Shown here one piece after another: positions 3 to 30,625 of a DNA stretch of 64,000 nucleotides. Each line of letters starts with the position of its first letter. The first letter of the stretch is position 1. Position numbers and translations under genes: made by a program. Under the pieces are notes generated by a model. It had not been told where the DNA came from. It saw only the letters and a program-made list of their open reading frames with translations, and did not search any database. The stretch is from Methanofollis aquaemaris (GTDB lineage Archaea; Halobacteriota; Methanomicrobia; Methanomicrobiales; Methanofollaceae). Location of the stretch: positions 1,772,561 to 1,836,560 of the forward strand of contig NZ_CP036172.1 in assembly GCF_017357525.1 (NCBI RefSeq), read 5' to 3'.

Positions 3-1259
3 GCCGACCCGGTACACCTGGGACGCGCCCACGGGGTGAAGGTCGACGTCTTCCCTGAGGGCGATCTCGATCCCCTCCAGGGTTCGCTCGGCGGGTATGA
101 AGCCGATGCGACCGGGATCGCGGGGACGCTTTTCACCGGCGACCTCGGGACGAGAACCGCCTTCGTCGCCATCTTCTTCAGGGACGGGGCGTCGGAGAAA
201 TCATATGCCACGTTCATGCTCACCGCTGCGGACGCCGTGAGGTTTGGCGATCTGTGGGAGAACGGATCGTACATCAGGCTCCGCGACTGGTCGGAGGCGT
301 CGGTCTCGCCGGAGAAGAAACTCGTCGGGTATGAGGAACCGGGTGCCGCGCTGGAACCAACCGGTCCCGCCATGGCGGTGAAGGCGGTTCAGATCCCTGA
401 ATCCTGTGACGATGAAGGGCTCCGGGAGAGGATGCGCGAGACCGCCGACGACCTGGCAACTACGGTGAGCGAACTTTCCATCACGGCAGGACGCGGGGAC
501 CACGCGAAAGCGGCCACCCTTGCCATGGGCTTGGCCTGCTCGGCCAGGTCGTACGCCGCCGACTTCGGAGACCTGGAGATCCCGGCAGGTTCGGAGGGGG
601 CCAGGGCCGATTTTATCAGGGGACTGGATGCCTATGTCGGGGCGGGTTCGGCGCTCTGGTATGGGGCCAACTTCGAGAACTCAACGATGTATGACGAGGG
701 GGCCACCTCCCTCGCCGAGGCGCGGGACACGCTGAACGGGGTGCTCGGGGCCCTTAACCTCAAGACTCTGGACGACCCGACCCTCGAACTCAAGTCGACC
801 GAACTCTATCCCGATGCGCTCGCCCTCGGGAAGGGATATATCTATGCCGATGCCAGGGGGGAGCATAAACTCTCGGTGAAACCCGGGTCGTACAAGTTCT
901 GGAAGTCGTATTCTGCGGGTGAAGAGGAGGTGACGGCACCGTACGGGAAGACGTTTTTCATGCTCGTGATGGACGTCAACTATGTCGCCTACTACGGTGG
1001 CGGGAGTTCGAAGGTCGGAACCCCGGCACCCCAGGTCTTCACCCTGCTTGCCGACGGGGAATCTTATACGCCGGTGAAGGTTTCGGCCTCCTACCTCAGG
1101 AACATCGGGTCGGTCTACCGGAGCGTCAACCTCGATCGGGACGATCGTCGTTCTGTCGGCTACCTGGTCTTCGAGGTGCCGGAATCTTTCGACCCCACAG
1201 GTGCCCATCTCAAAGCCAATCTTGGTGCGGGCGGTTCGCCGGTCTGGAAGATCGGCTGA
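3..1259 (+). CDS. Secreted-type protein of unknown function, 5' end cut by window edge
   Basis: I do not recognise the full-length family. The reading frame is open to the first base of the window, and its first residues (ADPVHL...GVKV) match an internal stretch of the frameshifted paralog just downstream (ADPEHL...GVKV), so the N-terminus with the expected signal peptide is missing. The GTG at 36 is therefore probably not the start. The C-terminal third (about residues 300-407 counted from 36) alternates hydrophobic strands and ends in a VFEVP motif, which resembles the DUF4352-type immunoglobulin-like domain of archaeal surface lipoproteins; that is an inference. The middle contains an alpha-helical stretch around an ALWYGA motif shared with the paralog. 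Function is unknown. It ends 461 bases before the paralog starts. Confidence 0.7.
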   Translation, partial: ADPVHLGRAHGVKVDVFPEGDLDPLQGSLGGYEADATGIAGTLFTGDLGTRTAFVAIFFRDGASEKSYATFMLTAADAVRFGDLWENGSYIRLRDWSEASVSPEKKLVGYEEPGAALEPTGPAMAVKAVQIPESCDDEGLRERMRETADDLATTVSELSITAGRGDHAKAATLAMGLACSARSYAADFGDLEIPAGSEGARADFIRGLDAYVGAGSALWYGANFENSTMYDEGATSLAEARDTLNGVLGALNLKTLDDPTLELKSTELYPDALALGKGYIYADARGEHKLSVKPGSYKFWKSYSAGEEEVTAPYGKTFFMLVMDVNYVAYYGGGSSKVGTPAPQVFTLLADGESYTPVKVSASYLRNIGSVYRSVNLDRDDRRSVGYLVFEVPESFDPTGAHLKANLGAGGSPVWKIG

Positions 1260-1720
1260 GGACTCTGTTGAATCCCTTCGGGTTGATCGTTGCGCGGAGG
1301 GCCGGGGGAGATTCTGCGATAGGGGCGGTCCATCTGATCGACGTGCCTTCCTGCACGCTCGCGCCGGGGGCGCTGCCCCCGGAACCCCCGGGATCAAGAT
1401 AAGGGCGGGAAGGCAGAGATATGAATGTTTTGAGGTTCGTGCTGTCCTCCACCGATCAAGTCCATCTGTGTGGGGGTGGTCAACCCTCATTTGCCCTCGA
1501 AGAGATATTCTACAGATCCGTTTTCTCTCTCCATTTTTTGTGTCGTCTATCTCTCCCGGCGCTCCCGTACAGGAGGATAAATTATATTATTTGATTCTTA
1601 AGTAGCACAAATAGAGAATGACAATATATATATATTCACACTGCAGAAAAAAATCGCCATATGCATGGTCATTACGGTCCCGCGGAGGCCGCAGGGAAGG
1701 GAACATGATCTGGTGCGGGA
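1260..1720. other. Spacer between the two paralogs
   Basis: No convincing gene. It begins with a partial copy of the end of the ~65-bp dispersed repeat (CTCTGTTGAAT at 1263-1273), carries a GC-rich hairpin repeat at about 1300-1417, and becomes AT-rich from 1570 onward, where the promoter of the downstream gene is expected (TATA-like TATATATATTC near 1626-1636). Confidence 0.5.
1300..1417 (+). repeat. GC-rich hairpin repeat, family A copy 1
   Basis: Contains the near-perfect palindrome CCGGGGGCGCTGCCCCCGG followed by a CCCCCGGGAT segment and AAGGGCGGGAAGGC. The same order of blocks recurs at 27612-27712 and 54944-55050, and inverted at 22845-22918. Non-coding; a structured RNA or mobile miniature element is possible. 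Confidence 0.6.
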
Positions 1721-3270
1721 ATGCGTCTGATGCTGGCGGCATCACTCCTTCTTTGTATCTGTTGTGTGGCCCCGGCCGCCGCCGGGCTCATGGACAACTC
1801 CGGGGAGGGTCAGGGCCTCGCCCGCCTTGTCTCTCTCTCCGAGCAGATCGGTGAACCGGATGCCGACACGCCGGGGCAGGCGAACCTGACCGGTTCAGGT
1901 GAGAATATGTTTGTCTCCTCGGGATCGTCTCAGGAGGACGCGGTTGCAGGGGTGTCCGTCTCCCTCTCGGGAGCTATGGTCAAAGATGTCGCGGTCTATT
2001 CTCTCATCACCGATCCCGGTGTGGCAGACCCGGAGCATCTGGAGCGTTCCTCCGGGGTGAAGGTCGTGCCGTCACCGATGCCGACGACCCCCTGGCCGAT
2101 ACGCTCTGGTGGTACGAGCAGGACGCGACGCGGGTGGTGCAGGCCCTCTATGCCGACGGGGTCGGGGATGATCTCGGTTTTGTCGTCGTTGTCTTCACAA
2201 AACTCAATGAAAAAGAATATTTTGCGAAGTTTGTCCTCGATGCCGCCGATGTTGCCTCCTTCCCGGCCGGTTTTGACGGCGGCTACATCAGGTACGCCGA
2301 CTGGTCTGAGGCCCTGGTCACCGGCGGTGCAGGAGTCGTGGGCTACGAATCCCCTGGCCGGGTGCTCGCGTGCAACCGACCGGCCGGCGGGGGCGCCGCG
2401 ATCCCGTGCCCTGACAGGGTCTTCGGGTCGATAATGACAGACGTGGCCACGGTATTGAACGAGAAGATCTCTGAGATTTCGTGTGCGGCCGGGGCGGAGG
2501 AGTACGAGACTGTGGGCACCCTCTCGATGGAACTCGCTGCAACCGCTCGTGCCGACGAACAATTTTTCAGGAGTCTTTCGGTGCCGGAAGAATTGAAACC
2601 TGCGTACCGGGAGTTCCTCAACGGTCTTGCGATGTATCAGGACGCGGGTTCGCTCTTCTGGTATGGTGCCTCGCTCAGCGATCTGAAATCTTTCTCAGAG
2701 GGGAACGACCGCCTGGTCCAGGGCCAGACTCAGACGCGGTGCGCTCTCGAACGTCTATCTCTCCAGGTTGCGGCACCCGATCTCCCGCCGGCTCCGCCGG
2801 AGGATCTCTATCCCGATGCCATCCGCCTCAAACAGCGATACGAGTTCAAAGACCGCGCTGGCGCTAACAACCTCTCGGTGCGGGTCGATTCGTTCGCCTG
2901 GATCGATCGTTATCACACCACGAAGGACGAGGTCCAGGAAGAGCACCGCCCGTCGTACGGGAACCGGTTCCTGGGTGTCCTGGTGGAGGTCAACCATCTC
3001 GGGTACTGGGGCAAGGGCAACCAGAAATTTAAAACTCCGAAGCCCGGCGACTTCACCCTTCTCTCACAGGGCGAGTGGGTCAAACTGACCCAACCCGACA
3101 CACCGTACATCCGGAACGTGGGTTCGATATATCAGCAGGTGACCCTGGACCGCAAGGAGCGGATCATCGGGTACCTTATCTATGAGGTTCCCGGGTCATT
3201 CGATCCCTCGGGCTCGTACCTGAAGGCCGAACTCGGGGATGCCGGCACTCCGATCTGGCGGCTTGGGTAA
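1721..3270 (+). pseudogene. Secreted-type protein of unknown function, frameshifted paralog of the preceding gene
   Basis: The ATG at 1721 opens a clear signal peptide (MRLMLAAS...CCVAPAAAG). The frame runs to a GVKVV motif at about 2057-2068. Similarity to the upstream paralog then continues one frame over, from VTDADDPL at 2071 to the stop at 3270. The alignment across the junction needs about one missing base near 2069-2070. Downstream the match is strong: FxxKFVLDAADV, YIRxxDWSEA, LFWYGA, YIRNVGSIYQQV, VFEVP/IYEVP. Both halves are otherwise free of stops over long distances, so the break is recent or a sequencing error; nothing here suggests a programmed slip site. If intact it would be an exported protein of about 516 residues with a DUF4352-like C-terminal domain. 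Confidence 0.75.
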
Positions 3271-3409
3271 GTGCATAGATCCGGAGAGAAGAACGTAATC
3301 AGACAAAAAGCGTGAAGCAGGCCGGAGCCGTCAGGCCCCGACCCACCGCCTCAGAGGACTCATAGGGTTCGTCAACGCCGGACGCGCCGGCTCGGAACGG
3401 TCAATCTCA

Positions 3410-4045
3410 TCATCGACGATAGGGAGCGTAGGCCCTGGCCGCCGCGGCCGGGTCCACCGCACCGTAGATGGCGCGGCCGACGATCATGCCGTCGACGAGG
3501 GGTGCGACCTCCGCCGGGTCGCCGCCCTGCGCCCCGACGCCCGGGGAGAGGATCTTTTTCTCGCCGATCAGGTTTCTCAACACTTTGATCCGTGCGGGCC
3601 GGGTCGCCGGGGCGATGATCCCGTCCGCGCCGTTTTCCACCACGAGACGGCAGATCGCTTCGGGCACCCCTTCGGAGAAGAAGGTGAGGGCGCCCGGATG
3701 GCTCATCTCGGCGACGACATAGCACTCGCCGCCATGGGCATGGGCGCTCTCCACGCAGGCGGCGATGGAGTCGGGGCCGGGGAAGGCCTGGGCGATGACC
3801 GCCGAGAACCCTGCCTCAAAGACCTGGTCGCAGATGAGCATGTTGGTGTTCGGGATGTCGGCAACCTTGAAGTCGGCGATGAGCGGGAGGCCGAGGTCTG
3901 CGAGGTCGCGGGCGATCCCAAGGCCGGTGCCGAGCACCAGGGGGTAGCCGACCTTGATCGCGTCGACTTCTTCTGCGCAGGCCGCTGCGATGCTGAGGGC
4001 GGATGTCCGGTCGGTGACGTCCAGGGAGAGGACAAGATCAGTCAT
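3410..4045 (-). CDS. pyrF: Orotidine 5'-phosphate decarboxylase
   Basis: Decarboxylates OMP to UMP, the last step of de novo pyrimidine synthesis, in the cytoplasm. The 211-residue product has the archaeal OMPDC length and starts with the MTDLVLSLDVT strand carrying the first substrate Asp. The catalytic D-x-K-x-x-D signature is DFKVADIPN (about residues 58-66), and the phosphate-gripping end is GAQGGDP plus VGRAIY. It lies downstream of deoxyhypusine synthase on the same strand, 67 bases after that gene's stop. It has its own Shine-Dalgarno (AGGAGC just before ATG) and a TATA-like ATTTAAAG at 4071-4078. The first codons are duplicated upstream (see the 37-bp repeat). Confidence 0.95.
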   Translation of the reverse strand: MTDLVLSLDVTDRTSALSIAAACAEEVDAIKVGYPLVLGTGLGIARDLADLGLPLIADFKVADIPNTNMLICDQVFEAGFSAVIAQAFPGPDSIAACVESAHAHGGECYVVAEMSHPGALTFFSEGVPEAICRLVVENGADGIIAPATRPARIKVLRNLIGEKKILSPGVGAQGGDPAEVAPLVDGMIVGRAIYGAVDPAAAARAYAPYRR

Positions 4046-4125
4046 GCTCCTATGCTCCTTTTGAAGTCTTATTTAAAGTTGCTGAAATGTGACATCCAGG
4101 GAGAGGACGAGGTCAGTCCTGCTCC
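4014..4125. repeat. 37-bp direct repeat: fossil copy of the pyrF start between dys and pyrF
   Basis: Positions 4014-4050 (ribosome binding site, start and first ten codons of pyrF) recur at 4089-4125 with four mismatches. The upstream copy overlaps the last codons and stop of deoxyhypusine synthase and still encodes TDLVLSLDVT in frame after the lost start. The 38 bases between the copies hold a TATA-like box. The simplest reading is that dys and pyrF once overlapped and a small tandem duplication separated them. Confidence 0.8.
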
Positions 4126-5060
4126 AGCCTTTCCAGGACCGCGGCGGCGATGAGGGGCAGGTTGATCGTCGCATCGCCGTACACCGTGATCGCCGCAGCG
4201 TCCTCGTTGATCTTGCCCCAGGACTGCGCCTCGGTGAGGGTCGCGCCCGAGAGCCCGCCAAGGTCGGGACGGTCGCCGGTGAGCTGCACCGCGTAGTCGA
4301 AGCCCGTCGGGGTGATGAGTTTGTTCTGGAAGATGAAGTTCTTCGGCACCCCGCCGCCCACCAGGAAGGCACCGGCATGTTCGGCCGCATAGCAGCGATC
4401 GATGATATCTTTCATGTCACCAAAGGCGTCGACGGTGATATGGTGCATCTGATTATAGAACCAGAACTGCAGCCCGAGCATCGAGTCCTGGATCGCCGGG
4501 CAGAAGACCGGGACATCGTACTTCGCCGCGGTTGCCAGGATCCCGTGGTCCAGGTGCTCGCCGATATGACGGAGAAGTCCTGAGATGGTGATCGTCGTTT
4601 TGTCCGGGATCTCGGTGAGACACTCCTGCATGAACTCTTCAAGGTGGATGAAGGCCTCGTCCGGGAGGAAGATGTCGTAGATCCGGTTGATCTCCTCGTG
4701 CCGCAGTTCGATATCATCGCAGACTGCGGTGCCGTGGTAGTGGTGGCACCCGATCGCCTCGATGGTGTCGTGGGTGAGGTTGGCGCCGGTTGAGACCAGG
4801 ATATCGATGTGGCCCCGCTCGATGAGGTCGCTGACGACCCCGCCCATTCCGGCCGGGACCATTGCCCCGGCAAGGCCGAAGAACTTTGTCGCCTTCTCGT
4901 CCCTGAGCATCATCTCATAGATGTCGACTGCCTGGGCAAGGGCTCCGCCATTGTAGGCTCCCGCTCCCTTGATCGCACGGACAAGCGTGTCGGCTGTCAT
5001 GCCGGGGGAGAGTTTGAGTTGCTTGACCGGGTCTCCGCATTCTTCTGTATTAGATTCCAT
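4113..5060 (-). CDS. dys: Deoxyhypusine synthase
   Basis: Transfers an aminobutyl group from spermidine to a lysine of archaeal aIF5A, making deoxyhypusine. The 315-residue protein shows family landmarks: FFGLAGAMVPAGMG near residue 60, the NAD-binding VSTGANLTHD around 90, HYHGTA, and the C-terminal FNFIFQNK-type active-site lysine region, here VPKNFIFQNKL (about 240-250), followed by TGDRPDLGGLSGAT. The start ATG at 5060 is the first in frame. It is upstream of pyrF on the same strand, and the two were probably once overlapping (see the duplicated pyrF start). Housekeeping gene, with nothing unusual in the coding part. Confidence 0.93.
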   Translation of the reverse strand: MESNTEECGDPVKQLKLSPGMTADTLVRAIKGAGAYNGGALAQAVDIYEMMLRDEKATKFFGLAGAMVPAGMGGVVSDLIERGHIDILVSTGANLTHDTIEAIGCHHYHGTAVCDDIELRHEEINRIYDIFLPDEAFIHLEEFMQECLTEIPDKTTITISGLLRHIGEHLDHGILATAAKYDVPVFCPAIQDSMLGLQFWFYNQMHHITVDAFGDMKDIIDRCYAAEHAGAFLVGGGVPKNFIFQNKLITPTGFDYAVQLTGDRPDLGGLSGATLTEAQSWGKINEDAAAITVYGDATINLPLIAAAVLERLEQD

Positions 5061-5372
5061 AGGACACCAGATTGTCTATGATCTTCGTCCCGTGATCCAT
5101 TAACAGTTTTGACCCGGACAACCGGTGGAAAAAAGGGATATGTGCTGTTGTATTGATATTCCCCAGTACTTGATCCTCTCTTTGGCGGCGATATGGATCA
5201 ATTGTAGTATCTTATATTGTTGGGGAGTGCCTGACTCCCCATATTGTATACGGTGTGTTCGCTTCCATTGCTTCCGAGTTTCCGAGGCTTGTGCGTGTAT
5301 GTGCTCTTCTTCTCCCCCTGTGGTATTTTCAAGGGACGAACATTCGGAAGATGTGCAGACTTCCACTGGCTC
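5061..5372. other. Spacer between dys promoter side and end of alcohol dehydrogenase 1
   Basis: No gene. It holds the 5' side of dys (minus strand reads away from 5060) and the 3' side of alcohol dehydrogenase 1. A perfect 8-bp inverted repeat, TGGGGAGT-gcctg-ACTCCCCA, lies at 5221-5241 and is flanked by AT-rich DNA. It may terminate minus-strand transcripts from the dehydrogenase about 130 bases past its stop, but it lacks a long T run. Confidence 0.5.
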
Positions 5373-6521
5373 TTAGAAGGCTTCCTTGTAGATAGCCATG
5401 ACCTCATCCTTCGTCGCGACACGGGGGTTGGTGAGGTTGCAGATGTCCTTCATGGCGTTGTCGGCCAGGGTCGGGATGTCCTCTTCCTTGGCGCCGAGTT
5501 CCGTCACGGTTGCCGGGATGCCGACGTCGACCGAAAGCGTCTTGATCGCTTCGATAGCCTTGTTCGCGGCTTCCATGGTGGAAAGGCCCTCGACGTTCTC
5601 GCCGAGTGCCTTGGCGATGTCGACAAAGCGCTCAGGTGTGGCGATGAGGTTGAACTTCTCGACGTACGGCAGGAGGATGGCGTTGCAGACGCCGTGCGGG
5701 AGGTTGTAGAAGCCGCCGAGCTGGTGGGCCATGGCGTGGACGTAGCCGAGGCTGGCGTTGTTGAATGCGATGCCGGCGAGGTACTCGGCGTGGGCCATCT
5801 TGTCGCGGGCCTCGAGGTTGGCGCCGTTGGCGACTGCCGGGCGGAGCCACTTGCTGATGAGCTCAATGGCCATGAGCGCGGCTGCGTCGGTGGTCGGCGT
5901 GGCGATGGTGGAGACGTAGGCCTCGACCGCGTGGGTGAGGGCGTCCATACCGGTTGCGGCGGTGAGTGCCGGCGGCATGCTGACCATCAGTTCGGGGTCG
6001 TTGATCGCGACGTCGGCAGTGTATTTCCAGTCGACGAGGGCCATCTTGACGTGCCGACGGGTGTCGGTGATGACGGCGAAGCTGGTCATCTCAGAGGCGG
6101 TACCCGCGGTGGTGTTGACGGTGATGAATGGTGGCAGGGCTTCCTTTGCCATCCCGGCGCCTTCGTAGTCGTAGATCTCGCCGCCGTTGGTGGCGACGAC
6201 ACCAATGCCCTTGGCGCAGTCCATCGGGGACCCTCCGCCGACGGCGACGATCATGTCGCAGCCTTCCTTCTTGTAGGCTGCTGCACCCTCGTGGACCGAG
6301 ACATCGGTCGGGTTGGGCTCGGCACCTGCGAAGACGTAGAAGTCGACACCGGCTTCCTTGAGGAGGGCGCCGACCTCTTCGGCGAGTGCCTTGCCGTGGC
6401 GACCCTTCCCTGAAACGATGAGGGCCTTCTTGCCGTTGAGCATCTGTGCCCAGTTTCCGATCTCCTTCACTGCACCAGCGCCCATGAGGGCGACTGCCGG
6501 GTTCAGATATGTGTATACCAT
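5373..6521 (-). CDS. Iron-containing alcohol dehydrogenase, copy 1
   Basis: Oxidises a primary alcohol (ethanol is the likely substrate, an inference) to the aldehyde with NAD(P). The 382-residue product is a group III, iron-dependent dehydrogenase. The nucleotide motif GGGSPMDCAKG is near residue 95, TTAGTASEMT near 135, and the metal ligands are Asp and His of GMDALTHAVEAY (about 195-205), His of VHAMAHQLGG and His of LPHGVCNA. An upstream in-frame ATG at 6545 exists, but I chose 6521 because it has GGAG eight bases before it and matches the start of its twin at 14935 (MTSTYLNP against MVYTYLNP). It is first in the minus-strand arm of the alcohol-oxidation cluster, next to Fno. Confidence 0.93.
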   Translation of the reverse strand: MVYTYLNPAVALMGAGAVKEIGNWAQMLNGKKALIVSGKGRHGKALAEEVGALLKEAGVDFYVFAGAEPNPTDVSVHEGAAAYKKEGCDMIVAVGGGSPMDCAKGIGVVATNGGEIYDYEGAGMAKEALPPFITVNTTAGTASEMTSFAVITDTRRHVKMALVDWKYTADVAINDPELMVSMPPALTAATGMDALTHAVEAYVSTIATPTTDAAALMAIELISKWLRPAVANGANLEARDKMAHAEYLAGIAFNNASLGYVHAMAHQLGGFYNLPHGVCNAILLPYVEKFNLIATPERFVDIAKALGENVEGLSTMEAANKAIEAIKTLSVDVGIPATVTELGAKEEDIPTLADNAMKDICNLTNPRVATKDEVMAIYKEAF

Positions 6522-6545
6522 TATTCCCACTCCATTTGAGGACAC

Positions 6546-6981
6546 TCTGTTCTGAGCATCCTATGATCGAAGACTCCACATGGGGCGATATAAAGGGTGG
6601 AGATTTCATTCCAGGTCTACGTGCTTTTATAGGATTTATTTATAATTATTAATCCTTAAATTCTCAAAATGGCTCATAATTGGACCTTGATTTCCGTCCT
6701 ATCAGTTTAAGTCTGGAATTTATACTATAATGGTCTATGATGGCAATTCGTAGATTTCACTCTGATATGCCATGAAAAATCATGAAAGATGCTTATTTTG
6801 CCGGTAAAATTCCGGTATTTTTGCCCCGCGACCTCTTCGAAATCTGCGCGCTCCAGAGTGAGGACGGCGGGAGTTGCCGCACCCCCCGGGACGGCGTGCA
6901 CCCGGGTGGCAATGTGTTCAGATAGGATAACGAACAATGTCGGAAGAAGAATAGTTTCGAAAAAATTGATGGGGATATATT
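6546..6981. other. Spacer between adh1 and fno1
   Basis: Mostly AT-rich promoter DNA for adh1. A GC-rich island at about 6830-6937 interrupts it; on the minus strand it can encode a 70-residue peptide from 6937 (HIATRVHAVPGGAATP...) with no ribosome binding site. It could be a gene scrap. Nothing comparable is present in the same place in copy 2. Confidence 0.4.
6585..6595 (-). promoter_or_regulatory. Likely TATA box of alcohol dehydrogenase 1
   Basis: On the minus strand this reads CCTTTATATCGC. It would place the transcript start near 6560-6565, giving a leader of about 40 bases. A second TATA-like CCTATAAAAGC lies farther up near 6627-6637. Confidence 0.5.
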
Positions 6982-7629
6982 TTATTTGAAGTAAACCCCG
7001 ACGTCCCGCTTCTTGCTGAACCTGGCAATGTTGATGACGAGGGGCGTGATGGCCTCGATGTACGGCGAGACTGCGAGAGGTCCGGCGTTCACGGCTTCAA
7101 GTTCTGAGATCGTGTTGACCAGTTCGATGACTTTCTCCTTTGCGTCCTCGTCGTCAGAACAGACACAGACCGAATAGTCGAGGGGCTCGGAGAGTTTCTG
7201 CCACTTGCCGGCCGGGATGTTGTTGAAGGCGGCGACGATCTTTGAGTCCGGCAGGAGTTTCTGGAGTTTCAGGGCCGCTGAGCCGTCCTCGGGTGGATTG
7301 TACTTGAAGTAGTCGGTCCTGACCATCGGGTTCATCAGGCTGACGATGGTCTTGCCCTCGAGTCCGGTGAGGGAGTCGATGGTCCTTTCCAGGTTCTCTG
7401 CCGGGATCGAGAAGACGACGATCTCTGACTCGTCCACGACACCCTGGTTGGTCGTCGGGTTGAGGTCGAAGGGGAGACCGAGCACCTTGAGCGCGTAGCC
7501 GCACATCTCACAGGCGGCCTGAGCCTTTTCCTCTTTGCGCGATCCGATATAGACGGTGTGGTTCTGTGAAAGCCGCAGTGCCATACCCTGTCCGATTCCA
7601 CCGGTTCCGCCGATGATTCCTACTTTCAT
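6982..7629 (-). CDS. fno: F420H2:NADP oxidoreductase, copy 1
   Basis: Transfers hydride between NADP(H) and coenzyme F420. In an alcohol-growing methanogen it converts NADPH from alcohol oxidation into F420H2 for CO2 reduction. The 215-residue protein opens with the Rossmann motif MKVGIIGGTGGIGQGMA. It has the NADP phosphate-recognising SR pair (YIGSRKEEKA), the VVFSIPAEN strand, SLMNPM, and VAAFNNIPAGKW in the F420 pocket region, and it ends in the usual FSKKRDVGVYFK-type tail. It lies beside adh1 on the same strand but with 436 bases between, so it probably has its own promoter. It is divergent from the nuoE-like gene. Confidence 0.95.
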   Translation of the reverse strand: MKVGIIGGTGGIGQGMALRLSQNHTVYIGSRKEEKAQAACEMCGYALKVLGLPFDLNPTTNQGVVDESEIVVFSIPAENLERTIDSLTGLEGKTIVSLMNPMVRTDYFKYNPPEDGSAALKLQKLLPDSKIVAAFNNIPAGKWQKLSEPLDYSVCVCSDDEDAKEKVIELVNTISELEAVNAGPLAVSPYIEAITPLVINIARFSKKRDVGVYFK

Positions 7630-8109
7630 GGTCGAGGAGTGGATGATCCCTGGTAATTATTATTTTCGGTTTGTAATCTTTCCAATATGTCTAAATATTT
7701 TCTAAAAATCGTGAAGAATTGGTTGTACGGGCGATCGGGGGAAAGATCTACAATCAGAATGATTTCCGGTCCCTGATCTCGATCTGATCTGTGGCTCCCT
7801 GCATGGGTCGAACCCTCCCCTCCGACATGGTCGTACCTGCCTCCCTGGCGGGGATCTCTCCAAATTGCTGTCCGATCCCCTGCGCGCCCCTCTGCGGGCG
7901 ATTCATGCCGGGCTTTCGTCGGCCCTCCGTGAGTGTGCTGGATGGAATCAATTCTAATCTTTTAAAAAAATATTCCTTTCATCATTTCTCATTCTCCCTG
8001 TTTAATCATGAAAAACCCTTAAATTGGGGGGGAAATCAACAGACGTAAATAGTTAGAGATTTTTTCATTAACTGGAACCTGAGTATACCAATATCATGGA
8101 GGGTTTGAA
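7630..8109. promoter_or_regulatory. Divergent control region between fno1 and the nuoEFG-like genes
   Basis: 480 bases with no supported gene. The AT-rich block 7650-7710 (AAATATTT core at 7690-7697) is positioned for the fno1 promoter. A second AT-rich block at 7955-8030 is positioned for the plus-strand operon. The Shine-Dalgarno GGAGGG for the nuoE-like gene is at 8098-8103. Confidence 0.5.
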
Positions 8110-8589
8110 ACGACAGAGACACAAGAACAGATCCCAACGGTGCGTCAGATCATCGAAGGCTACCCGAAAGAGCCTCGTTATCTGCTTGCAGCGTTACAGG
8201 ATATCCAGGAAAATCACACGTACCTGTCTGTCGAATCGATGAAGATGGTCGCCGAGTATCTCGGCGTTCCTGAGAGTCGGGTCTTTAGTGTCGCCACTTT
8301 TTACAAAGCGCTCAGTCTTGTCCCCCAGGGCAAGAAAGTGATCAAGGTCTGCAACGGCACGGCATGCCACCTCCGCGGTGCGCCCAAACTCGTTGAAGCC
8401 CTGGAGAAAGAACTTGGCATCAAGAACGGCGAGACGACCGATGACGGTCTCTTCACGATCCAGACAGTGAACTGTGTCGGAGCCTGTGCAATGGCTCCGG
8501 TTGTCATGGTCAATGACCGGGTCTACGGGAAGGTGACCATCTCACAGGTCTCGGAAATTATTGAGGAGGAGAGGAAAGATGCGGTTTGA
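8110..8589 (+). CDS. NuoE-like [2Fe-2S] subunit of aldehyde-oxidising flavin complex, copy 1 (ACG start?)
   Basis: Thioredoxin-fold [2Fe-2S] subunit (24-kDa family) that docks on the NuoF-like flavoprotein. Cluster ligands are in [14 protein letters not shown] (first pair) and [10 protein letters not shown] (second pair), near residues 90-130. The start is odd. A strong GGAGGG at 8098-8103 sits six bases before ACG at 8110, exactly where the twin gene at 16257 has ATG: the two N-termini align codon for codon with no gap. The first conventional in-frame start is GTG at 8140, which has no ribosome binding site and would cut off ten residues. An ACG start, a mutated start or a base-call error are the options. 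The gene overlaps the nuoF-like gene by 11 bases. Confidence 0.85.
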
Positions 8590-10453
8590 TACGATAAAAG
8601 ACCTCGAAGAATACCGTGCGGGTCTTCTTGCCTCAGCACCCGATGTTCCCCACATCTGGGTCTGTGCGGGGCCAGGGTGTCTTGCCAACGGCAGCATGGA
8701 GATCTACGAGGCCTTCATGGCGTATGCCGACGAGCACGACCTGAAGGCCGAGATCGACCTCAAAGCGGAGGCCACCGGCTGCCAGGGGCTCTGCGAGCGC
8801 GGTCCCCTCGTCACCGTTCGCCTCGCAAAGGACACCGATGAGATCTTCTACCAGCATGTAAGGGTCAAGGACGTTTCCGAGATCATGGAGAAGACCGTCC
8901 TCGGCGGTAACGTCGTCGACCGTCTCCTGTACCGCGATCAGGCCACCAAGTCGAAGATCGCCTCGACCTCGGCCATCCCGTTCTATGCTCACCAGAAGAA
9001 GATCGTCCTCAAGAACTGTGGGCATGTCAACCCCCTCTCCATCGACGAAGCCATCGGCGCCGGCGCCTATGCCGGGCTTGCGAAGGCACTCGCTATGGAG
9101 CCTGCAGAGGTCGTGAAGGTCGTCAAGGACTCCGGTCTCCGAGGTCGCGGCGGCGGAGGGTTCCCGACCGGTGTGAAGTGGGAGTCGGCCGCCGTCGTCG
9201 ACGCCCCGCAGAAATATGTGGTCGTGAACGGCGACGAAGGTGACCCTGGTGCGTTCATGGACCGGGCCGTCATGGAAGGCGACCCGCACACCATGCTCGA
9301 AGGCCTTGCCATCGGTGGATATGCCATTGGGGCTACACGGGGTCTGATCTATGTCAGGAACGAGTACCCGATCGCCGTCGAGCACCTCCATCTCGCCATC
9401 GAGCAGGCGCACGAGTACGGTCTCCTCGGCAAGAACATCCTGGGCAGCGGTTTCGATTTCGAGATCGAGATCGTCCGGGGTGGCGGCGCCTTCGTCTGCG
9501 GTGAATCGACCTCCCTCATGACCTCCATCGAGGGCAGGGCCGGTGTCCCGCGGGTCAAGTACATTCGTTCGACCGAGAAGGGTCTCTGGGAAGGCCCGAC
9601 TGTCCTCAACAATGTCGAGAGTTGGGCAAACATCCCGCAGATCCTGCTCAACGGTGCTGAGTGGTTCAAGAGCATGGGCACCGACAACAGCAGCGGGACC
9701 AAGGTCTTCTCTCTCGTCGGCAAGATCAAGAACAGCGGCCTCGTCGAGGTGCCGATGGGCGTCACCCTGCGCGAGATGATCTACGAGATCGGTGGGGGGG
9801 TGCTCAACGACCGCGAGTTCAAGGCTGTCCAGACCGGCGGGCCGTCGGGCGGCTGCCTCCCGGCAAGCGAACTCGACCGCCCGGTGGACTTCGACCAGCT
9901 CAAGGCTGCCGGTTCGATGATGGGCTCAGGCGGGATGATCGTCATGGACGACCACACCTGCATGGTCAACCTCGCCCAGTATTTCGTCGACTTCCTGGTC
10001 GAGGAGTCGTGCGGGAAGTGCACACCCTGCCGCGAGGGTCTGAAAGCGATGCAGACGCTCCTCCACGGCCTCACCTCGGGCACCGCCAGACCCGGCGACA
10101 CTGCGCTTCTCAAGGAGATCGCCGAGCATGTCCGGGACACCGCACTCTGCGGCCTGGGCAAGACCGCCGCCAACCCGGTGCTCTCGACGATGCACTGGTT
10201 CCCTGAAGAATATGAGGAGCATGAGAAGGAGGGCTTCTGTCGGGCCGGGGTCTGCAGCGGACTCTACACCCTTGAGATCGATCCCGATCTCTGCACCGGA
10301 TGCACCCTCTGTGAACGGGTCTGTCCGGCCGGTGCGGTCGCCGGCGAGAAGAAGATGCCGCACACCATCGACAAGCATGCCTGTGTCACCTGCGGCTCAT
10401 GCATCGACGCGTGTCGGTTCAAGGCGATCAAGGTCGTGAGGAGGAGTGAGTAA
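8579..10453 (+). CDS. NuoF-like FMN/NAD(P)-binding iron-sulfur subunit, copy 1
   Basis: This 624-residue flavoprotein is the presumed NAD(P) site of the complex. Domains in order: an N-terminal thioredoxin-like [2Fe-2S] domain ([10 protein letters not shown] and CQGLCERGP, about residues 25-90); the NuoF core with the FMN/NAD motif [13 protein letters not shown] (about 195) and [10 protein letters not shown]; a SLBB region; the [4Fe-4S] site [11 protein letters not shown] (about 480); and a C-terminal two-cluster ferredoxin ([12 protein letters not shown] and [11 protein letters not shown]). This layout matches HydB/HndC and the Bfu-type electron-bifurcating family. I chose ATG 8579, with GGAGGAGAGG just before it, overlapping the nuoE-like stop. 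The next gene starts two bases after its stop. Confidence 0.92.
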
Positions 10454-11394: not shown

Positions 11395-11883
11395 ATGGAG
11401 AAAACTGAGAACCTGTTGCTGATCACCCCTGAGCGGTGCATCGGCTGCGGGACATGCGAACTGGCATGCTCGATCGGGCATGTCGGAGAATTCAAGCCGA
11501 CTGTTGCGAATATCTCGGTCCTCAGATTTGAGGCCGGAGTGAACGTGCCCATGGCCTGTCTGCAGTGCGACAAGCCCGCCTGTGTTGCTGCGTGCAAGAG
11601 TGGCGCCCTCGAGAAGGATCCTGCAAGCGGTCTCGTCAGCGTTAACGGCGCCAAATGTATCGGATGCCGGATGTGCGTGATGGCCTGCCCCTTCGGCAAC
11701 ATCTCGTACAACGCTGCTGCAAAGCAGGCCCTGAAGTGCGACCAGTGTGGCGGTCACCCGATGTGCGCCGAGTTCTGCCCGGCAAACGCTATCGAATATC
11801 TGCCCGCCGACACTGCGAATGTTCAGAGGAAGAAGGCGTTCGCTGCAAAACTTGCTGCCGGTATCTCGGAGGTGAATGTATAA
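11395..11883 (+). CDS. Four-cluster ferredoxin subunit of aldehyde oxidoreductase, copy 1
   Basis: A 162-residue HycB/CooF-type protein with four cysteine quartets: [36 protein letters not shown] and [15 protein letters not shown], enough for four [4Fe-4S] clusters. It is the electron-transfer partner (AorA/WorS type) of the tungsten subunit that follows; its TAA stop shares an A with the AOR ATG, so the pair is translationally coupled. It would wire the tungsten site to the NuoEFG-like head or to soluble ferredoxin; that routing is an inference from gene order. Confidence 0.9.
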
Positions 11884-13691
11884 TGTATGGCTGGACTGGA
11901 ACGGTGCTCCGCGTCAACCTGACTGAGGGCACGGTCAAGAAGGAACCCCTCAACGAGGACTTCGCAAAGAATTACATCGGCGGGCGTGGGCTCGGCGAGA
12001 AGTACTTCGTCGACGAGGTCGACATGGCTGTCGACGCCCTCTCTCCCGAGAACAAACTCATCTTCGCCACCGGCCCGTTGACCGGGACGATGGGTGTCTC
12101 GACCGGGCGCTACGACGTCGTCGCCAAGGGCCCGCTCAACAACACCCTCGCCTCGTCCAACTCAGGCGGCTACTTCGGTCCGGCGATCAAGTACGCCGGC
12201 TACGACCTGATCATCTTCGAGGGGAAGGCTGAGAAGCCGGTCTACCTCTGGATCAACAACGACACCGTCGAACTCCGCGACGCCTCCCACCTCTGGGGAA
12301 AGACGATCTACGAGACCGACGACGCCGTGAAGGCCGAGACCGACCCGGACGCTGAGGTTGCCTGCATCGGTCCTGCCGGTGAGAAACTCGTCCTCTTCGC
12401 CTGCATCATGAACGACAAGCACCGTGCCGCCGGCAGGACCGGGATCGGTACGGTCATGGGCTCCAAGAACCTCAAGGCCCTTGCCGTCCGCGGCACCGGC
12501 GGGATCAAGGTCGCCGACAAGGAAGGTTACCTCAACGCCGTCCGCGCCGCCAGAAAAAAGATCGCTGAGAACCCGGTCACCTCCCAGGGTCTGCCGACCT
12601 TCGGGTCCAACATCCTGGTCAATATCATCAACGAGTCCGGGGCACTTCCAACGAAGAACTGGCGTGAAGCCTACGACCCCGAGGCCGACAAGATCTCCGG
12701 CGAGACCCTCAGCCGCGACAACCTCATCCACAACAAGGGGTGCGCCTCCTGTGTCATCGGGTGTGGGCGTGTCGCCAAGGCGAAGGGTCGGTTCAACGAG
12801 ATTGGCGAAGGGCCTGAATATGAGTCGGCCTGGTGCTTCGGTTCTGACTGTGCTATCCACGACATGGACGCTGTCCTGAAGGCGAACTTCCTCTGTAACG
12901 AACTCGGGATGGACACCATCTCTCTGGGCTCGACGATCGCCTGTGCGATGGAGCTCGTCGACATCGGCGCCATCGACGGTGAGAAGACCGGGTGCGACCT
13001 CAAGTTCGGCAACGCCGAAGCGATGGTCGAGATCACCCGTGCTACCGCCTACCGTGAAGGCTTTGGCGACGAGATCGCCGAGGGTTCCTTCAGGCTGGCC
13101 ACGAAGTATGGCCACCCCGAACTCTCGATGACCGTCAAGAAGCAGGAGATGCCGGCCTACGACCCGCGTGCGATCCAGGGTATCGGTCTGGAATACGCCA
13201 CCTCCAACCGTGGCGGGTGCCACGTCCGCGGCTACACCATCTCACCTGAGATCCTCGGCCTCCCGATGAAGATGGACCCCTCGGTCACCGAAGGCAAGCC
13301 CGAGATCCTCAAGATCTTCCAGGATCTCACCGGTGCGCTCTCCGCCTCCGGAACCTGTCTCTTCGCCTCGTTCGCGATCGGCGCCGACGAGATCGCCGCC
13401 GAACTCTCGGCCGCGACCGGCGTCGAGTTCACGACCGAGAAGGTCATGGAGATCGGCGAGCGGATCTACAACATGGAGCGGATGTTCATCGTCAAGAACG
13501 GTTACTCCGGGAAGGACGACGCTCTCCCGCCCAGGCTGCTCAACGACCCGATCCCGGCAGGCCCGGCAAAGGGCGGTGTCAACCACCTGCCTGAGATGCT
13601 GCCGCACTACTACGATATCAGGGGTTGGGACGCCGATGGTATCCCGACGCAGAAAAAGCTTGAGGAGCTCGGCCTGGCCGACATGGCCTGA
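11883..13691 (+). CDS. Tungsten-containing aldehyde oxidoreductase large subunit, copy 1
   Basis: Oxidises aldehydes to carboxylic acids using a tungsten bis-pyranopterin; acetaldehyde to acetate is the expected reaction here. The 602-residue product has the AOR family length. It shows the N-terminal pterin-binding region with RGLGEKYF and FATGPLTGT (about 40-75), SNSGGYFG, a [17 protein letters not shown] loop near 195, and the [4Fe-4S] ligands C-x2-C-x3-C in [12 protein letters not shown] (about 285) with the fourth Cys in SGTCLF (about 490). ATG 11883 overlaps the ferredoxin stop. It is last in the plus-strand operon of copy 1 and is followed by T-rich DNA. Confidence 0.95.
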
Positions 13692-16256: not shown

Positions 16257-16742
16257 ATGACCGAAGGCGTGGGAGATCAAACAGCGGTGCAGGAGATTCT
16301 CGGGGCCTATCCCAGGGATCCCAGACATCTGCTCGCGGCATTGCAGGACATCCAGGCTGAGTACAGTTATCTCTCGGTCGAGTCGATGAAAGAGGTCGCC
16401 AGATATCTCGGCGTCCCTGAAAGTCAGGTCTTCAGTGTCGCCACATTTTACAAGGCACTCAGTCTTGTCCCGCTGGGAAAGAAGGTGATCAAGGTCTGCA
16501 CCGGTACGGCGTGCCATCTCCGCGGTGCGCCCAGACTCGTCGAGGCTATCGAAGGAGCACTCGGGATCAGGGACGGGGAGACCACCGCAGACGGAGTGTT
16601 CACCCTCCAGACCGTGAACTGCGTCGGTGCCTGTGCGATGGCGCCGGTCGTGGTGGTGAACGAGCGAGTGTACGGGAAGGTGGGGATTGCTCAGATCCCG
16701 GAAATGATCGAGACGGAGCGTGAGGATGAGGCTGAAGAGTAG
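16257..16742 (+). CDS. NuoE-like [2Fe-2S] subunit of aldehyde-oxidising flavin complex, copy 2
   Basis: A 161-residue thioredoxin-fold [2Fe-2S] subunit, twin of the gene at 8110-8589. Cluster cysteines lie in [14 protein letters not shown] and [10 protein letters not shown]. Here the start is an ordinary ATG (MTEGVGDQ) preceded by a G-rich stretch, which is the reference for judging the ACG of copy 1. The frame is open farther upstream to 16110, but that stretch has no similarity to copy 1 and I exclude it. It overlaps the next gene by 17 bases. Confidence 0.93.
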
Positions 16743-18591
16743 AGAGGCGCTTGAGGCCTACCGCACCTCGTTGCCGCCGAAGGGTGCCGACGCTCGAGCG
16801 TGGGTGCAGGTCTGCGCCGGCACCGGTTGCATCGCCTTCGGGAGCGTTGCGGTGCGCGAGGCCTTCGAGGAGGAGGCTAGAAAGAGAGGCATGGAGATCG
16901 GGGTCACGTTCCTGGCCGATTCCACCGGGTGCCACGGGTTCTGCGAGCGGGGCCCCCTGGTGGTCATCCATCCGGGAAATATCTTCTACCAGCAGGTGAA
17001 GGTCAAGGATGTTCCCGAGATCTTCGAGAAGACGATCCTGAACGGGGAGGTGATCAAGCGCCTCCTGTACCGCGACCCGTTGACGAAGGAACACTACCAG
17101 ACCGCCGAGAAGATCCCCTTCTATGCCAGTCAGCACCGGATCGTCCTCAAGAACACCGGGCATGTCAACCCCTTCGAGATCGACGATTACCTCCGTGCGG
17201 GGGGGTATGCCGGGCTTGCGAAGGCTCTTTCGATGTCGCCGAAAGAGGTGGTCGGGGTCGTCAGGGACTCGGGGCTTCGCGGCCGCGGCGGCGGCGGGTT
17301 CCCGACCGGCGTGAAATGGGAGTCGGCCGCCGGTGTCGAGGCACCTGAGAAGTACGTCGTTGCCAATGGTGACGAGGGCGATCCCGGCGCCTTCATGGAC
17401 CGCAGTCTCATGGAAGGCGACCCGCACAGCGTCATCGAGGGGATGATCATCGGGGGGTATGCGATCGGCGCCACCCGCGGGATCATCTATGTCAGGAACG
17501 AGTATCCGCTCGCGGTCAGGCACCTGACCCGCGCCATCGAGCAGGCGCACGAGTACGGCCTCCTGGGTGAGCAGGTGCTCGGCAGCGGGTTCGACTTCGA
17601 GATCGAGATCTTCCGGGGCGGGGGGGCTTTTGTCTGCGGCGAGTCCACCGCCCTGATGACTTCCATTGAGGGGAAGGCCGGGGTTCCGCGGGTCAAGTAC
17701 ATCCGTTCGACTGAGAAGGGACTCTGGGAGGCCCCGACGATCCTCAACAATGTCGAGACCTGGGGGAACATCCCGCAGATCCTGGTGCACGGCGCCGACT
17801 GGTTCAGGAGCATGGGCACCGCGAACAGCAGCGGGACCAAGGTCTTCTCGCTCGTCGGCAAGGTCAAGAACAGCGGTCTTGTCGAGGTGCCGATGGGCAT
17901 ACCTCTGCGCACGATGATCTACGAGATCGGCGGCGGGGTGCTCAAAGACCGCGAGTTCAAGGCTGTGCAGACCGGCGGGCCGTCGGGCGGGTGTCTGCCG
18001 GCGGAGAGACTCGATCTCCCGGTGGATTTCGACGAATTGATCAAGGCCGGGTCGATGATGGGGTCGGGGGGGATGATCATCATGGACGAGCACACCTGCA
18101 TGGTCAATGTCGCCCAGTATTTCATCGATTTCCTGGTCGAGGAGTCGTGCGGGAAATGCACGCCCTGCCGCGAGGGGCTCAAGGCGATGCAGACTCTTCT
18201 CCACGGTCTCACCTCGGGCACCGCCCGACCCGGCGACACCGCACTGCTCAAGGAGTTTGCCGGGCATGTGCGGGACACCTCGCTCTGCGGCCTGGGCAAG
18301 ACCGCCGCGAACCCCGTGCTCTCAACGATGCACTGGTTCCCCGAGGAGTACGAGGAGCACGAGAAGGAGGGCTTCTGCCGCGCCGGGGTATGCAGCGGGC
18401 TCTACGCCCTTGAGATCGATCCCGCACTCTGCACCGGGTGCACACTCTGCGCCAAGGTCTGCCCGGTCGATGCCGCCACCGGGGAGAAGAAACAGACACA
18501 CCGGATCGACATGGAGAAATGCATCACCTGCGGTTCGTGCATCGATGTCTGTCCGGTCAGAGCGGTCAAGGTCGTGAGGGGGGTGACGTGA
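16726..18591 (+). CDS. NuoF-like FMN/NAD(P)-binding iron-sulfur subunit, copy 2
   Basis: A 621-residue twin of the gene at 8579. The same domain order is present: N-terminal [2Fe-2S] thioredoxin-like domain ([19 protein letters not shown]), NuoF core with [13 protein letters not shown] and [10 protein letters not shown], [4Fe-4S] site [11 protein letters not shown], and C-terminal two-cluster ferredoxin ([24 protein letters not shown]). ATG 16726 is preferred over GTG 16720 because GGAG lies seven bases upstream. Copy 2 completes the second ferredoxin quartet with CIDVCP where copy 1 reads CIDACR. Expected to hold the FMN and NAD(P) site of the complex. Confidence 0.92.
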
Positions 18592-19445: not shown

Positions 19446-19934
19446 ATGGAAAAAACTGAGAACTTGCTGCTGATCACTCCTGAGAAGTGTATCGGCTGTG
19501 GAACCTGTGAACTGGCATGCTCGGTCGGGCATGAAGGAGAGTTTCGACCGGCGACATCGAGGATATCGGTCCACCGGTTTGAGGCGGGAGTGAACGTCCC
19601 GATGACCTGTCTGCAGTGCGACAAACCGGCGTGTGTGGCGGGGTGCCCCACCGGCGCCCTGGAGAAGGACACCGAGACCGGGCTGGTCAATGTCATTGCA
19701 TCGAAGTGTATCGGGTGCCGGATGTGCGTGATGGCCTGTCCGTTCGGCAACATCTCGTACAGCATGGCGGCGAAAAAACCATTGAAATGCGACCAATGCG
19801 ACGGCAGTCCGATGTGCGTCGAGTTCTGCCCGACGAACGCCATCGAGTATCTGCCGGCCGACACAGCGACGATCCGGCGGAAGAAGGCGTTCTCGGCAAA
19901 GATTGCCGCCGGTATTTCGGAGGTGGAGATCTGA
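19446..19934 (+). CDS. Four-cluster ferredoxin subunit of aldehyde oxidoreductase, copy 2
   Basis: A 162-residue twin of the gene at 11395 with four cysteine quartets ([52 protein letters not shown]). In copy 2 the second quartet carries the standard GCP ending whereas copy 1 reads ACK. An in-frame start exists at 19413, but ATG 19446 matches copy 1 and follows a GGGGGAAG ribosome binding site. The gap to the nuoG-like gene is only 79 bases, so here the ferredoxin and AOR are probably cotranscribed with nuoEFG-like genes. Confidence 0.9.
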
Positions 19935-21742
19935 TGTACGGCTGGATGGGGACGGTGCTCCGTATCGACCTGGGTGCGGGCACGGTCAAGAAAGAGGCAC
20001 TGAACAAGGCGTTTGCCGAGGAGTTCATCGGGTCCAGGGGACTTGGCGAGAAGTACTTTATGGAGGAGGTCGACCCGACGGTGGACGCCCTCTCGCCGGA
20101 GAACAAACTCATCTTCGCCACCGGGCCGTTGACCGGGACGATGGGCGTCTCGACCGGGCGCTACGACGTGGTCGCCAAGGCCCCGCTCAACAACACCCTG
20201 GCCTCGTCCAACTCGGGCGGGTACTTCGGTGCCGAGGTGAAGTACGCAGGCTACGACCTGATCATCTTTGAGGGGAAGGCCGCAAAACCAGTGTATATCT
20301 GGATCAACAACGGCGCCGTCGAGATCCGCGACGCCTCCACTCTCTGGGGCAAGACGGTCTACGAGGCCGACGACGCCCTGAGGGCCGAGACCGATCCCGA
20401 GGCTGAGGTGGCCTGCATCGGTCCGGCCGGCGAGAAACTTGTCCTCTTCGCAAACATCATGAACGACAAGCACCGTGCCGCCGGGAGGACCGGGATCGGG
20501 GCGGTGATGGGATCGAAGAATCTCAAAGCCATCGCCGTCCGCGGCACCGGCGGGATCAAGGTCGCCGACAAGAACGAGTTCCTCACTATCGTGAGAGATG
20601 CAAGGAAGAAGATCAACGAGAACCCGGTCACGTCCCAGGGTCTGCCGACCTATGGGAGCAATGTCCTGGTCAACATCATCAACGAGGTTGGGGCCTTCCC
20701 GACAAACAACTGGCGCGAGGCGTACTTCGACGAGGCCGACAAGATCTCGGGGGAGACGCTCACCGGCAAGCATCTGGTCCATGGCAAGGGCTGCGGGAGT
20801 TGCGTGGTCGGGTGCGGCCGCGTCGCGAAGGCCCACGGGCGGTATCAGGAGGTCGGCGAAGGCCCGGAGTACGAGTCGGCCTGGTCGTTCGGGGCGGACT
20901 GCGGGATCTCTGATATGGATGCCGTCCTGAAGGCGAACTTCCTCTGCAACGAACTCGGGATGGACACGATCACGATGGGCTCGACGATCGCCTGTGCGAT
21001 GGAACTCGCGGACATCGGGGCGGTCGATGCGATGCAGAACGGGGTCGAGGTTCGTTTCGGGAGTTCGGAGGCACTGGTCGAACTGACGCGGGCCACCGCC
21101 TACCGCGAGGGTTTCGGCGACGACCTGGCACTCGGCTCGTACCGTCTGGGCGAGAAGTACGGCCATCCCGAACTTTCGATGAGCGTCAAGAAGCAGGAGA
21201 TGCCTGCCTATGACCCGCGGGCGATCCAGGGGATCGGTCTGGAGTACGCCACTTCCAACCGCGGCGGGTGCCATGTCAGGGGCTACACCATCTCGCCCGA
21301 GGTGCTGGGCCTCCCGATGAAACTGGACCCGGCGGTCACCGAGGGCAAGGCCGAGATCCTCAAAATCTTCCAGGATCTTACTGCGGCGCTCTCCTCGTCG
21401 GGCACCTGTCTCTTCTCTTCGTTTGCGATCGGCGCCGACGAGATCGCCGCTGAACTGAAGACGGTCACCGGGGTCGACTACACGCCCGAGCGGATCATGG
21501 CGATCGGGGAGAGGATCTGGAATATGGAGCGGATGTTCAACATCAAGAACGGTTACACGGCCGAGGACGACACGCTCCCGCCCAGACTGCTCAAAGAACC
21601 GATCCCGCGAGGGCCGGCGAAGGGCCAGGTCAGCAGGCTTCCAGAGATGTTGCCTCAGTACTATAAGGTCCGCGGCTGGGACGAGAAGGGGGTTCCGACG
21701 CAGGAGAAGCTGGAAGAACTCGGGTTGGCGAAATTGATCTGA
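19934..21742 (+). CDS. Tungsten-containing aldehyde oxidoreductase large subunit, copy 2
   Basis: A 602-residue twin of the gene at 11883, exactly equal in length and about four fifths identical by eye. Pterin-binding landmarks ([26 protein letters not shown]) and the [4Fe-4S] ligands ([12 protein letters not shown] plus SGTCLF) are intact. Expected to oxidise aldehydes to acids with electrons leaving via the coupled ferredoxin subunit, whose stop overlaps this ATG (TGATG). It ends copy 2 of the cluster and is followed by an 11-T run. Confidence 0.95.
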
Positions 21743-25237: not shown

Positions 25238-26896
25238 ATGTCGCAACAAATGGGAGGACAACCGATCCTGATTCTGAAGGAAGGCAGCTCCCGCACTCGC
25301 GGGAGGGACGCGCAGAGCATCAACATCTCCGCCGCTAAGGCCGTAGCCAGCGCCGTTCGGACGACCCTTGGTCCCCGGGGCATGGATAAGATGCTCGTGG
25401 ACACCATCGGGGATGTCGTCATCACCAACGACGGCGTGACCATCCTCAAAGAGATGGACATCGAACACCCGGCCGCCAAGATGATGGTCGAGGTTGCAAA
25501 GACGCAGGACGACGAGGTCGGCGACGGCACCACCACCGCGGTCGTCGTGGCCGGCGAACTCCTCAAGCGTGCGGAGGATCTCCTCGAACAGGACGTCCAC
25601 CCCACCGTCATCGCTCAGGGCTACCGCAAGGCGGCCGAAAAGGCCATCGAACTCCTCAATGAGATCGCCATCGACGTCGAACCCGGCGACGAGGAGATCC
25701 TCATGAAGATCGCGGGCACCGCCATGACCGGCAAGGGTGCCGAGGCTGCCAAGGACAAACTCTGTGACCTCGTTGTCAGGGCTGTCACCATGGTCGCCGA
25801 CGAGGACGGCACCGTCGACACCGACTACGTCAAGGTCGAGAAGAAGGTCGGCGGTTCCATCGAGGACTCCGAGATCGTCGAAGGCATGCTCATCGACAAG
25901 GAGCGTGTCCACCCCGCGATGCCCAAGAAGGTCGAAGAGGCCAATATCCTCCTGCTCAACGCCGCGGTCGAGTTCAAGAAGACCGAGGTCGACGCCGAGA
26001 TCAACATCACGAGCCCTGACCAGCTCCAGATGTTCCTCGACGAGGAAGAGCGGATGATCAGAAACATCGTCGACAAGATCGTCGCCTCCGGTGCGAACGT
26101 CCTCTTCTGCCAGAAGGGTATCGACGACATCGCCCAGCACTACCTCGCAAAGTCCGGCGTCTTCGCAGTCCGCCGTGTCAAGAAGTCCGACATGGAGAAA
26201 CTCGCCCGTGCAACCGGTGCGTCTCTGGTATCCTCCATCGATGCTATCTCTCCCGAGGAACTCGGCTACGCCGGGCTCGTCGAGGAGCAGAAGGTCTCCG
26301 GCGAGGACATGATCTTCGTCAAGAAGTGCAAGAACCCGAAGGCCGTCTCCATGATCATCAAGGGCGGCACCGAGCACGTCGTCGACGAACTCGACCGTGC
26401 GATCGAGGACGCCCTCAGGGTCGTCGAGGTTGCCATCCGCGACAAGAAGTTTGTCGTCGGCGGCGGTTCGCCTGAGATCGAGCTCTCCCTCCGTCTCCGC
26501 GAGTACGCAGCGACCGTCGGCGGCCGGGCCCAGCTCGCCATCGAGGCCTTTGCAACCGCTCTCGAGATCATCCCGAGGACACTTGCCGAGAACGCCGGAC
26601 TCGACCCCATCGACACCCTGGTCGACCTCCGTGCAGCCCACGAAAAGGGTCAGAAGACCGCCGGGCTCGATGTCTACACCGGCAAGGCTGGCGACATGCT
26701 CGCTCTGGGCGTTGTCGAGCCCCTGCGTGTCAAGACCCAGGCGATCTCCTCGGCCGCCGAGGCCGCTGTGATGATCCTCAGGATCGACGACGTCATCGCG
26801 TCCGCCAAGTCTGCCGGCCCCTCGCCCGAGGAGATGGCAGCCATGGGCGGCGGCATGGGTGGCATGGGCGGCATGGGCGGCATGCCCCCGATGTGA
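25238..26896 (+). CDS. thsA: Thermosome subunit (group II chaperonin)
   Basis: ATP-dependent protein-folding chaperonin that assembles into a two-ring cage closed by its own lid. The 552-residue product shows [13 protein letters not shown] (about 47), the ATP-binding [17 protein letters not shown], the catalytic [10 protein letters not shown] (about 90-100), and [12 protein letters not shown] near 410. It ends in the Gly-Met-rich tail [16 protein letters not shown] typical of thermosomes. A TATA box, a Shine-Dalgarno and a strong hairpin terminator frame it as a single-gene unit. Confidence 0.97.
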
Positions 26897-30438: not shown

Positions 30439-30625
30439 GTCTTCTGTACCCTCCATTGTTAATGATCGATGCTTTCTTTTGATTGATTCAATCAACTCAT
30501 TATTATGTCTTTGTATTTAATCAAAACTTTATTTGATCTATTTTTTTGATAATTGTGGCATAATAATCCAAATTATCCTTTTAAAATCTTATAAAATAGT
30601 ATTTACATGTCGAGGCCCTGGGGAA

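Follow-up and report, generated by a model that had tools for sequence, protein, structure and literature searches.

The window, by which we mean the whole 64-kb stretch of DNA analysed, comes from a Methanofollis genome (G000) and carries the genes dys and pyrF in the same direction, with 67 nt between them (Table 1). Their junction is marked by a direct repeat of 37 nt with four mismatches, whose copies start 75 nt apart. The first-pass annotation, made from this one sequence, had reported the duplication and the joining of its upstream copy to the end and stop of dys; both descriptions hold, the first to the base. The upstream copy, read from 4125 to 4089, consists of the last dys codons, the TGA and 24 nt of pyrF-like sequence. 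The former pyrF start within it is now AGG (4120-4118), and translation in the pyrF frame gives RTDLVLSLDVTFQQL and then a stop. The match to the pyrF head within this interval was equalled by 0 of 20,000 dinucleotide shuffles and is thus not due to chance. At the downstream copy, the repeat brings GGAGC from the end of dys, at least five bases, ahead of the pyrF ATG. A ribosome binding site had also been placed in the repeat; GGAGC does stand right before the ATG, but it amounts to five bases that are dys codons in the upstream copy, and GGAG at nine bases before the ATG is the better placed candidate.

Table 1. Features of the dys-pyrF junction in the window (64 kb).
Feature	Position	Strand	Basis and remarks
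dys, deoxyhypusine synthase	4113..5060	minus	ORF; over the NCBIfam cut-off of NF002630; stop TGA 4115-4113
Upstream repeat copy: dys end and fossil pyrF head	4089..4125	minus	33/37 identical to 4014-4050
Fossil proper, the 24 nt that follow the dys stop	4089..4112	minus	21/24 sites match pyrF bases 9-32
Spacer between the copies	4051..4088	minus	38 nt; without match to dys tail, pyrF or rest of genome
Putative TATA box TTTAAATA	4070..4077	minus	24 nt before pyrF ATG; pattern search; promoter activity presumed
8-bp tandem repeat, 2 copies	4044..4059	minus	GGAG 4058-4055, candidate Shine-Dalgarno
Downstream repeat copy: working pyrF start, ATG 4045-4043	4014..4050	minus	33/37 identical to 4089-4125
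pyrF, orotidine-5'-phosphate decarboxylase	3410..4045	minus	ORF; over the NCBIfam cut-off of NF010386

The window contains three families of direct repeats at least 28 nt long whose copies stand within 300 nt of each other, and the two besides the junction repeat are 71% and 76% alike. Other repetitions are also seen there, the genes being named from their translations by eye. In a chemotaxis-receptor-like gene (28441-30495, minus) a 366-bp unit is present as two tandem copies with 86% matches (29567-30284), a duplicated sensor-domain segment. A NuoF/HydB-like flavoprotein (8561-10453 and 16720-18591) and an aldehyde-oxidoreductase-like protein (11655-13691 and 19616-21742) are each encoded twice, forming two paralogous gene blocks within about 13 kb. 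The paralogous aldolase-like frames at 39321-40496 and 40100-40891 (minus) are a probable tandem gene duplication, the plus-strand ORFs 36-1259 and 2134-3270 near pyrF are visibly similar in their C-terminal halves, and a thermosome-like gene ends in a 9-bp unit repeated four times (26849-26884), which encodes a Gly-Gly-Met tail.

Gene pairs that overlap occur widely in bacteria and archaea, and the overlap is believed to link the translation of the two genes; its formation has been studied. We sampled 12 Methanofollis genomes, in 11 of which the junction was readable; G007 was left out, its pyrF being cut at a contig end and an adjoining dys not found. Seven of the 11 junctions (G001, G002, G004, G005, G008, G009 and G011) show an 8-nt overlap, ATGACTGA, the dys stop falling within the start of pyrF. 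The other four are gapped, by 66 nt in G003, 62 nt in G006 and 66 nt in G010 besides the 67 nt of G000, and a decayed pyrF head lies directly 3' of the dys stop in every one of them; the second repeat copy is absent from the sister lineages with overlap. Across the order outside the genus, where 187 genomes were searched and the junction was read in 85, the genes overlap in 76 (8 nt in 23 genomes, 4 nt in 50 and 1 nt in three) and are separated in nine, by 0, 0, 1, 2, 2, 5, 15, 33 and 91 nt. With 76 of the 85 genomes overlapping, 73 of them by 4 or 8 nt, the overlap is most simply ancestral. An overlap of dys and pyrF in sister species had been predicted from the single sequence, and these counts confirm it; relatives carrying both copies while the genes never overlap were looked for and did not occur. 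The core of the first-pass idea, an overlapping pair pulled apart by duplication, is accordingly supported through its own prediction. The three longest gaps outside the genus, all in genus g10 (L102/G086, 15 nt; L138/G126, 33 nt; L139/G090, 91 nt), contain no fossil pyrF head, and overlaps have therefore been lost by other routes too. The 91-nt gap is A-rich, with repeated AACGAAA-like words.

The four fossil heads have decayed to different degrees. Over the 24 sites after the dys stop, in-register identity to the pyrF of the same genome is 21 in G000, 20 in G003 and 16 in G006; the G010 fossil agrees at 14 of 24 sites with its own pyrF after one inserted base and at 17 of 24 with the overlapping relative G001. 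In register, matches as good as that of the G006 fossil were given by one of 20,000 shuffles for its own pyrF and by 0 for those of G003 and G001; for the G010 fossil the corresponding numbers were six, three and 0, and two other offsets tried for it were non-significant. When local alignment to the own head was left free, 0 of 20,000 shuffles did as well in G000, 0-2 in G003, 1,517-1,565 in G006 and 445-495 in G010. Local alignment against all 11 heads of the genus was equalled by 14 to 7,804 of 20,000 shuffles for G006 and by 2 to 519 for G010, the G006 fossil showing no excess against the heads of G002 and G010 (7,804 and 7,472 shuffles as good). The G006 and G010 fossils rest on the in-register test and on the closer heads, their free local alignments being weak. 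The relic start lies right at the dys stop, in the register that the ancestral overlap would give, in G010 with one inserted base. The upstream copy of G003, CATGACTGA, has the ancestral overlap intact and its ATG kept, while the ATG has become AGG in the fossils of G000, G006 and G010. The G003 fossil (L003, reverse strand, at the dys stop) continues for 14 codons beyond its ATG, and its predicted product would be a peptide of 15 residues. The G010 fossil contains CCGAC, near the CTCGAC of the overlapping relatives, and the working pyrF of this genome has CTTGAT; by these letters the relic appears nearer the older state than the working gene.

The distribution of the gapped state was compared with a tree of five genes (8,739 columns, rooted by hand) and with trees built from RpoA1 plus EF-2 and including seven outgroups. 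These agree in uniting G000, G003 and G006 as a clade (100/100) and in placing G010 as the sister of G001, G005 and G008, an overlapping trio supported at 100/99 to 100/100. A dys-pyrF tree gives the same groups (the trio at 96/91 with outgroups and 76/80 without), and the pattern is therefore not due to transfer of the locus. The outgroup-rooted trees leave the deeper order of the groups unsettled. In one outgroup, G039, rpoA1 occurs as two genes with equal scores, separated by about 15.7 kb (C1:277485-280091 and 293205-295811), owing either to a large duplication of recent date or to a repeat in the assembly.

Because the gapped species belong to two separate lineages, two events are required, namely two duplications or one duplication and an exact reversal. 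In the latter case a single duplication in the ancestor of (G000, G003, G006) and (G010, G001, G005, G008) would have been undone in G001/G005/G008 by recombination between the repeats, which restored the 8-nt overlap, and we give this course a probability just short of even. The trees demand two changes either way, the same ATG to AGG change is found in three of the four fossils, and parsimony over the 37 repeat columns is a near tie, two duplications taking 46-49 steps and one duplication with reversal 47-49, or 46-47 with free choice of donor. It is set back by the spacers, which are mutually similar in G000, G003 and G006 (p 0.0005 each), whereas homology of the G010 spacer to these three was tried and found non-significant (p 0.15-0.27). 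Moreover, the G010 fossil is best matched by CTCGAC-type heads from species with overlap (G011, G009, G005 and G001), whereas G000, G003 and G006 have heads of the form CTGGAC or CTGGAT, as separate events predict. The dissimilar spacer thus leans towards two origins and the common AGG towards one. A deletion between direct repeats would be expected to give an overlap of exactly 8 nt, and for G001/G005/G008 alone an overlap made in this way is possible. As a general account, with the separated state ancestral and the overlaps made by such deletions, this is scarcely credible and is disfavoured by the order survey, since overlap is general in the order, in both 4-nt and 8-nt genomes, and G002, G004, G009 and G011, outside both gapped lineages, overlap too.

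With the overlap taken as the ancestral state, the DNA now lying between the genes has to be accounted for. The claim that a small tandem duplication split the pair is borne out by the ancestral overlap, the repeat and the fossils, but the gapped species do not form one clade, the gapped state standing at two places in the species tree, and the 38-nt spacer calls for more than duplication alone. Spacers measure 38-43 nt across the gapped species, the five bases before the ATG included. A decayed second dys tail or further pyrF codons were considered as the source of the spacer, and the similarity was not above that of shuffles; in a genome search for a copy from elsewhere, which a short or diverged source could escape, the spacer found itself only. 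The whole period is not repeated as in a simple head-to-tail tandem duplication, the spacer being unlike the dys tail or pyrF beyond the repeat. Since it matches neither gene nor anything elsewhere in the genome, duplication with insertion, or a rearranged duplication, would be needed, and the copying mechanism as we present it is incomplete for the same reason. The spacer might instead be inserted DNA with a ready promoter, the repeat having arisen with the insertion or its repair and not by plain tandem duplication. A plain 75-nt tandem unit should leave a visible second dys tail or more of pyrF, which ought still to be readable because the equally old fossil head is at 21/24, and none is seen. 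Nevertheless, the failure of the genome search to find a second copy and the small size of the spacers, which hold no recognised element, make an insertion rather unlikely. The fossil heads diverge about as much as the four-fold sites of both genes, with 0.167 versus 0.206 for G000-G003, 0.292 versus 0.309 for G000-G006 and 0.250 versus 0.296 for G003-G006, a comparison of low power given the 24 nt after the stop. In view of this similarity to four-fold degenerate sites the fossil seems to be neutral relic DNA, and over these few sites it looks like unconstrained sequence. A selected regulatory element in the upstream copy, such as a leader peptide, an attenuator or a protein-binding RNA, would suit its position between both genes and the frame of ATG and 14 codons before a stop that G003 still has. 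However, with divergence near that of four-fold sites, the ATG gone in three of the four species and the frame of G010 shifted through one inserted base, we consider such an element very improbable; nor did the junction yield a structured RNA or an Rfam family, an Rfam search giving no match and the fold equalling that of shuffles (z 0.36).

Three of the four gapped species (G000, G003 and G006) have TTAAATA at 23-24 nt ahead of the pyrF ATG; G010 has no consensus TATA at this distance, with ATTATTT at 25 nt instead. The stop of the G003 fossil frame falls within the box. Five TTAAATA sites occur in the 64-kb window against 0.44 expected; the other four lie outside the ORFs taken as genes and at distances from starts other than 24 nt. 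The duplication had been said to make room for a new TATA box, and this holds for the box itself, which is present and kept in three gapped species, but its activity as a promoter is putative. No transcript start-site study of Methanofollis was found among the matches listed. In Methanolobus, according to the available text of PMC5378194, the distance of BRE and TATA from the transcript start is about 19-22 nt, and about 16% of transcripts lack a leader. The natural prediction from the position of the box is that the pyrF transcript starts near the ATG and would therefore be nearly leaderless. As regards translation, six gene pairs from Haloferax and E. coli show hardly any termination-reinitiation once the genes stand about 20 nt apart (PMC10666635, available text). 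On account of such published spacing effects the 67-nt gap should largely uncouple pyrF from dys; coupling may be partly kept, as the available text of PMC6728339 reports partial coupling over a 50-bp gap in E. coli.

We propose, with high confidence, that an ancestral overlap was split by duplication of the junction, the first pyrF head being left to decay as a fossil and pyrF, now behind a spacer with a TATA box and GGAG, probably being started independently. In the ancestor dys and pyrF would have overlapped by 8 nt, ATGACTGA, and about 37 nt spanning the junction would have been duplicated, comprising at least the last dys bases, the overlap and about ten pyrF codons. The first copy would keep the end and stop of dys and the second the start of pyrF, so that the pyrF part of the first copy would turn into untranslated, decaying DNA. 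An AT-rich spacer would have arisen between the copies, its TATA box standing 24 nt ahead of the pyrF ATG, and the 8-bp tandem repeat would supply GGAG at Shine-Dalgarno distance. The most likely consequence is that pyrF would lose its termination-reinitiation coupling to dys and be started on its own, through its own promoter, through de novo initiation on a transcript shared with dys, or through both. Ribosomes that had just finished dys may have been trapped at the fossil start; the disappearance of this start from three of the four species would fit selection against such a trap but, with three cases, equally chance or a single change. A bolder combination of these elements, which we regard as doubtful, is that two junction duplications in the genus each turned a coupled overlap into an independently promoted pyrF, and that the leftover start trapped ribosomes and was therefore selected away in three of the four species (ATG to AGG, at the cost of His to Gln in dys). 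The G003 start would then still capture ribosomes and yield its 15-residue peptide, and the dys codons carried along would have become the Shine-Dalgarno sequence of pyrF.

Slippage yields short direct repeats of tens of bases in one lineage. The dys-pyrF repeat resembles such short tandem duplications in being a direct repeat of tens of bases in one lineage with one copy in relatives, and differs from them in that its copies are parted by the 38-nt spacer and do not stand cleanly head to tail. No paper on dys together with pyrF in archaea was found among the matches listed. The ancestral 4- or 8-nt overlap has the geometry needed for termination-reinitiation (PMC6728339, PMC10666635), and 4-nt overlaps are among the commonest, as stated in the available text of PMC10666635; an ancestral dys-pyrF coupling is putative and is suggested by this geometry alone. 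Unlike in these studies, as far as their available text goes, where gaps were lengthened via introduced stop codons, the dys-pyrF geometry was broken by evolution. According to the available text of PMC4161906, studies up to 2014 addressed the creation of overlaps and not their loss. In co-directional prokaryotic genes (PMC4161906; in Salmonella, PMC3843671) overlaps are likewise lost and distances shift between close species. In contrast, the available text of both papers counts states and describes loss via start or stop changes, whereas the dys-pyrF loss can be followed at the level of single bases. The main text of both papers is without the word "duplication" (0 occurrences), and overlap loss by junction duplication is not described among the matches listed, the available text of PMC4161906, PMC3843671 and PMC3887535 included. 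The junction is a small, clean evolutionary case and not a new system: overlap loss is known, and the route with a readable relic is a variation on it. Closely related species show the state before, the state after and several stages of decay, and it is therefore testable whether a broken overlap frees the second gene and whether the old start must go.
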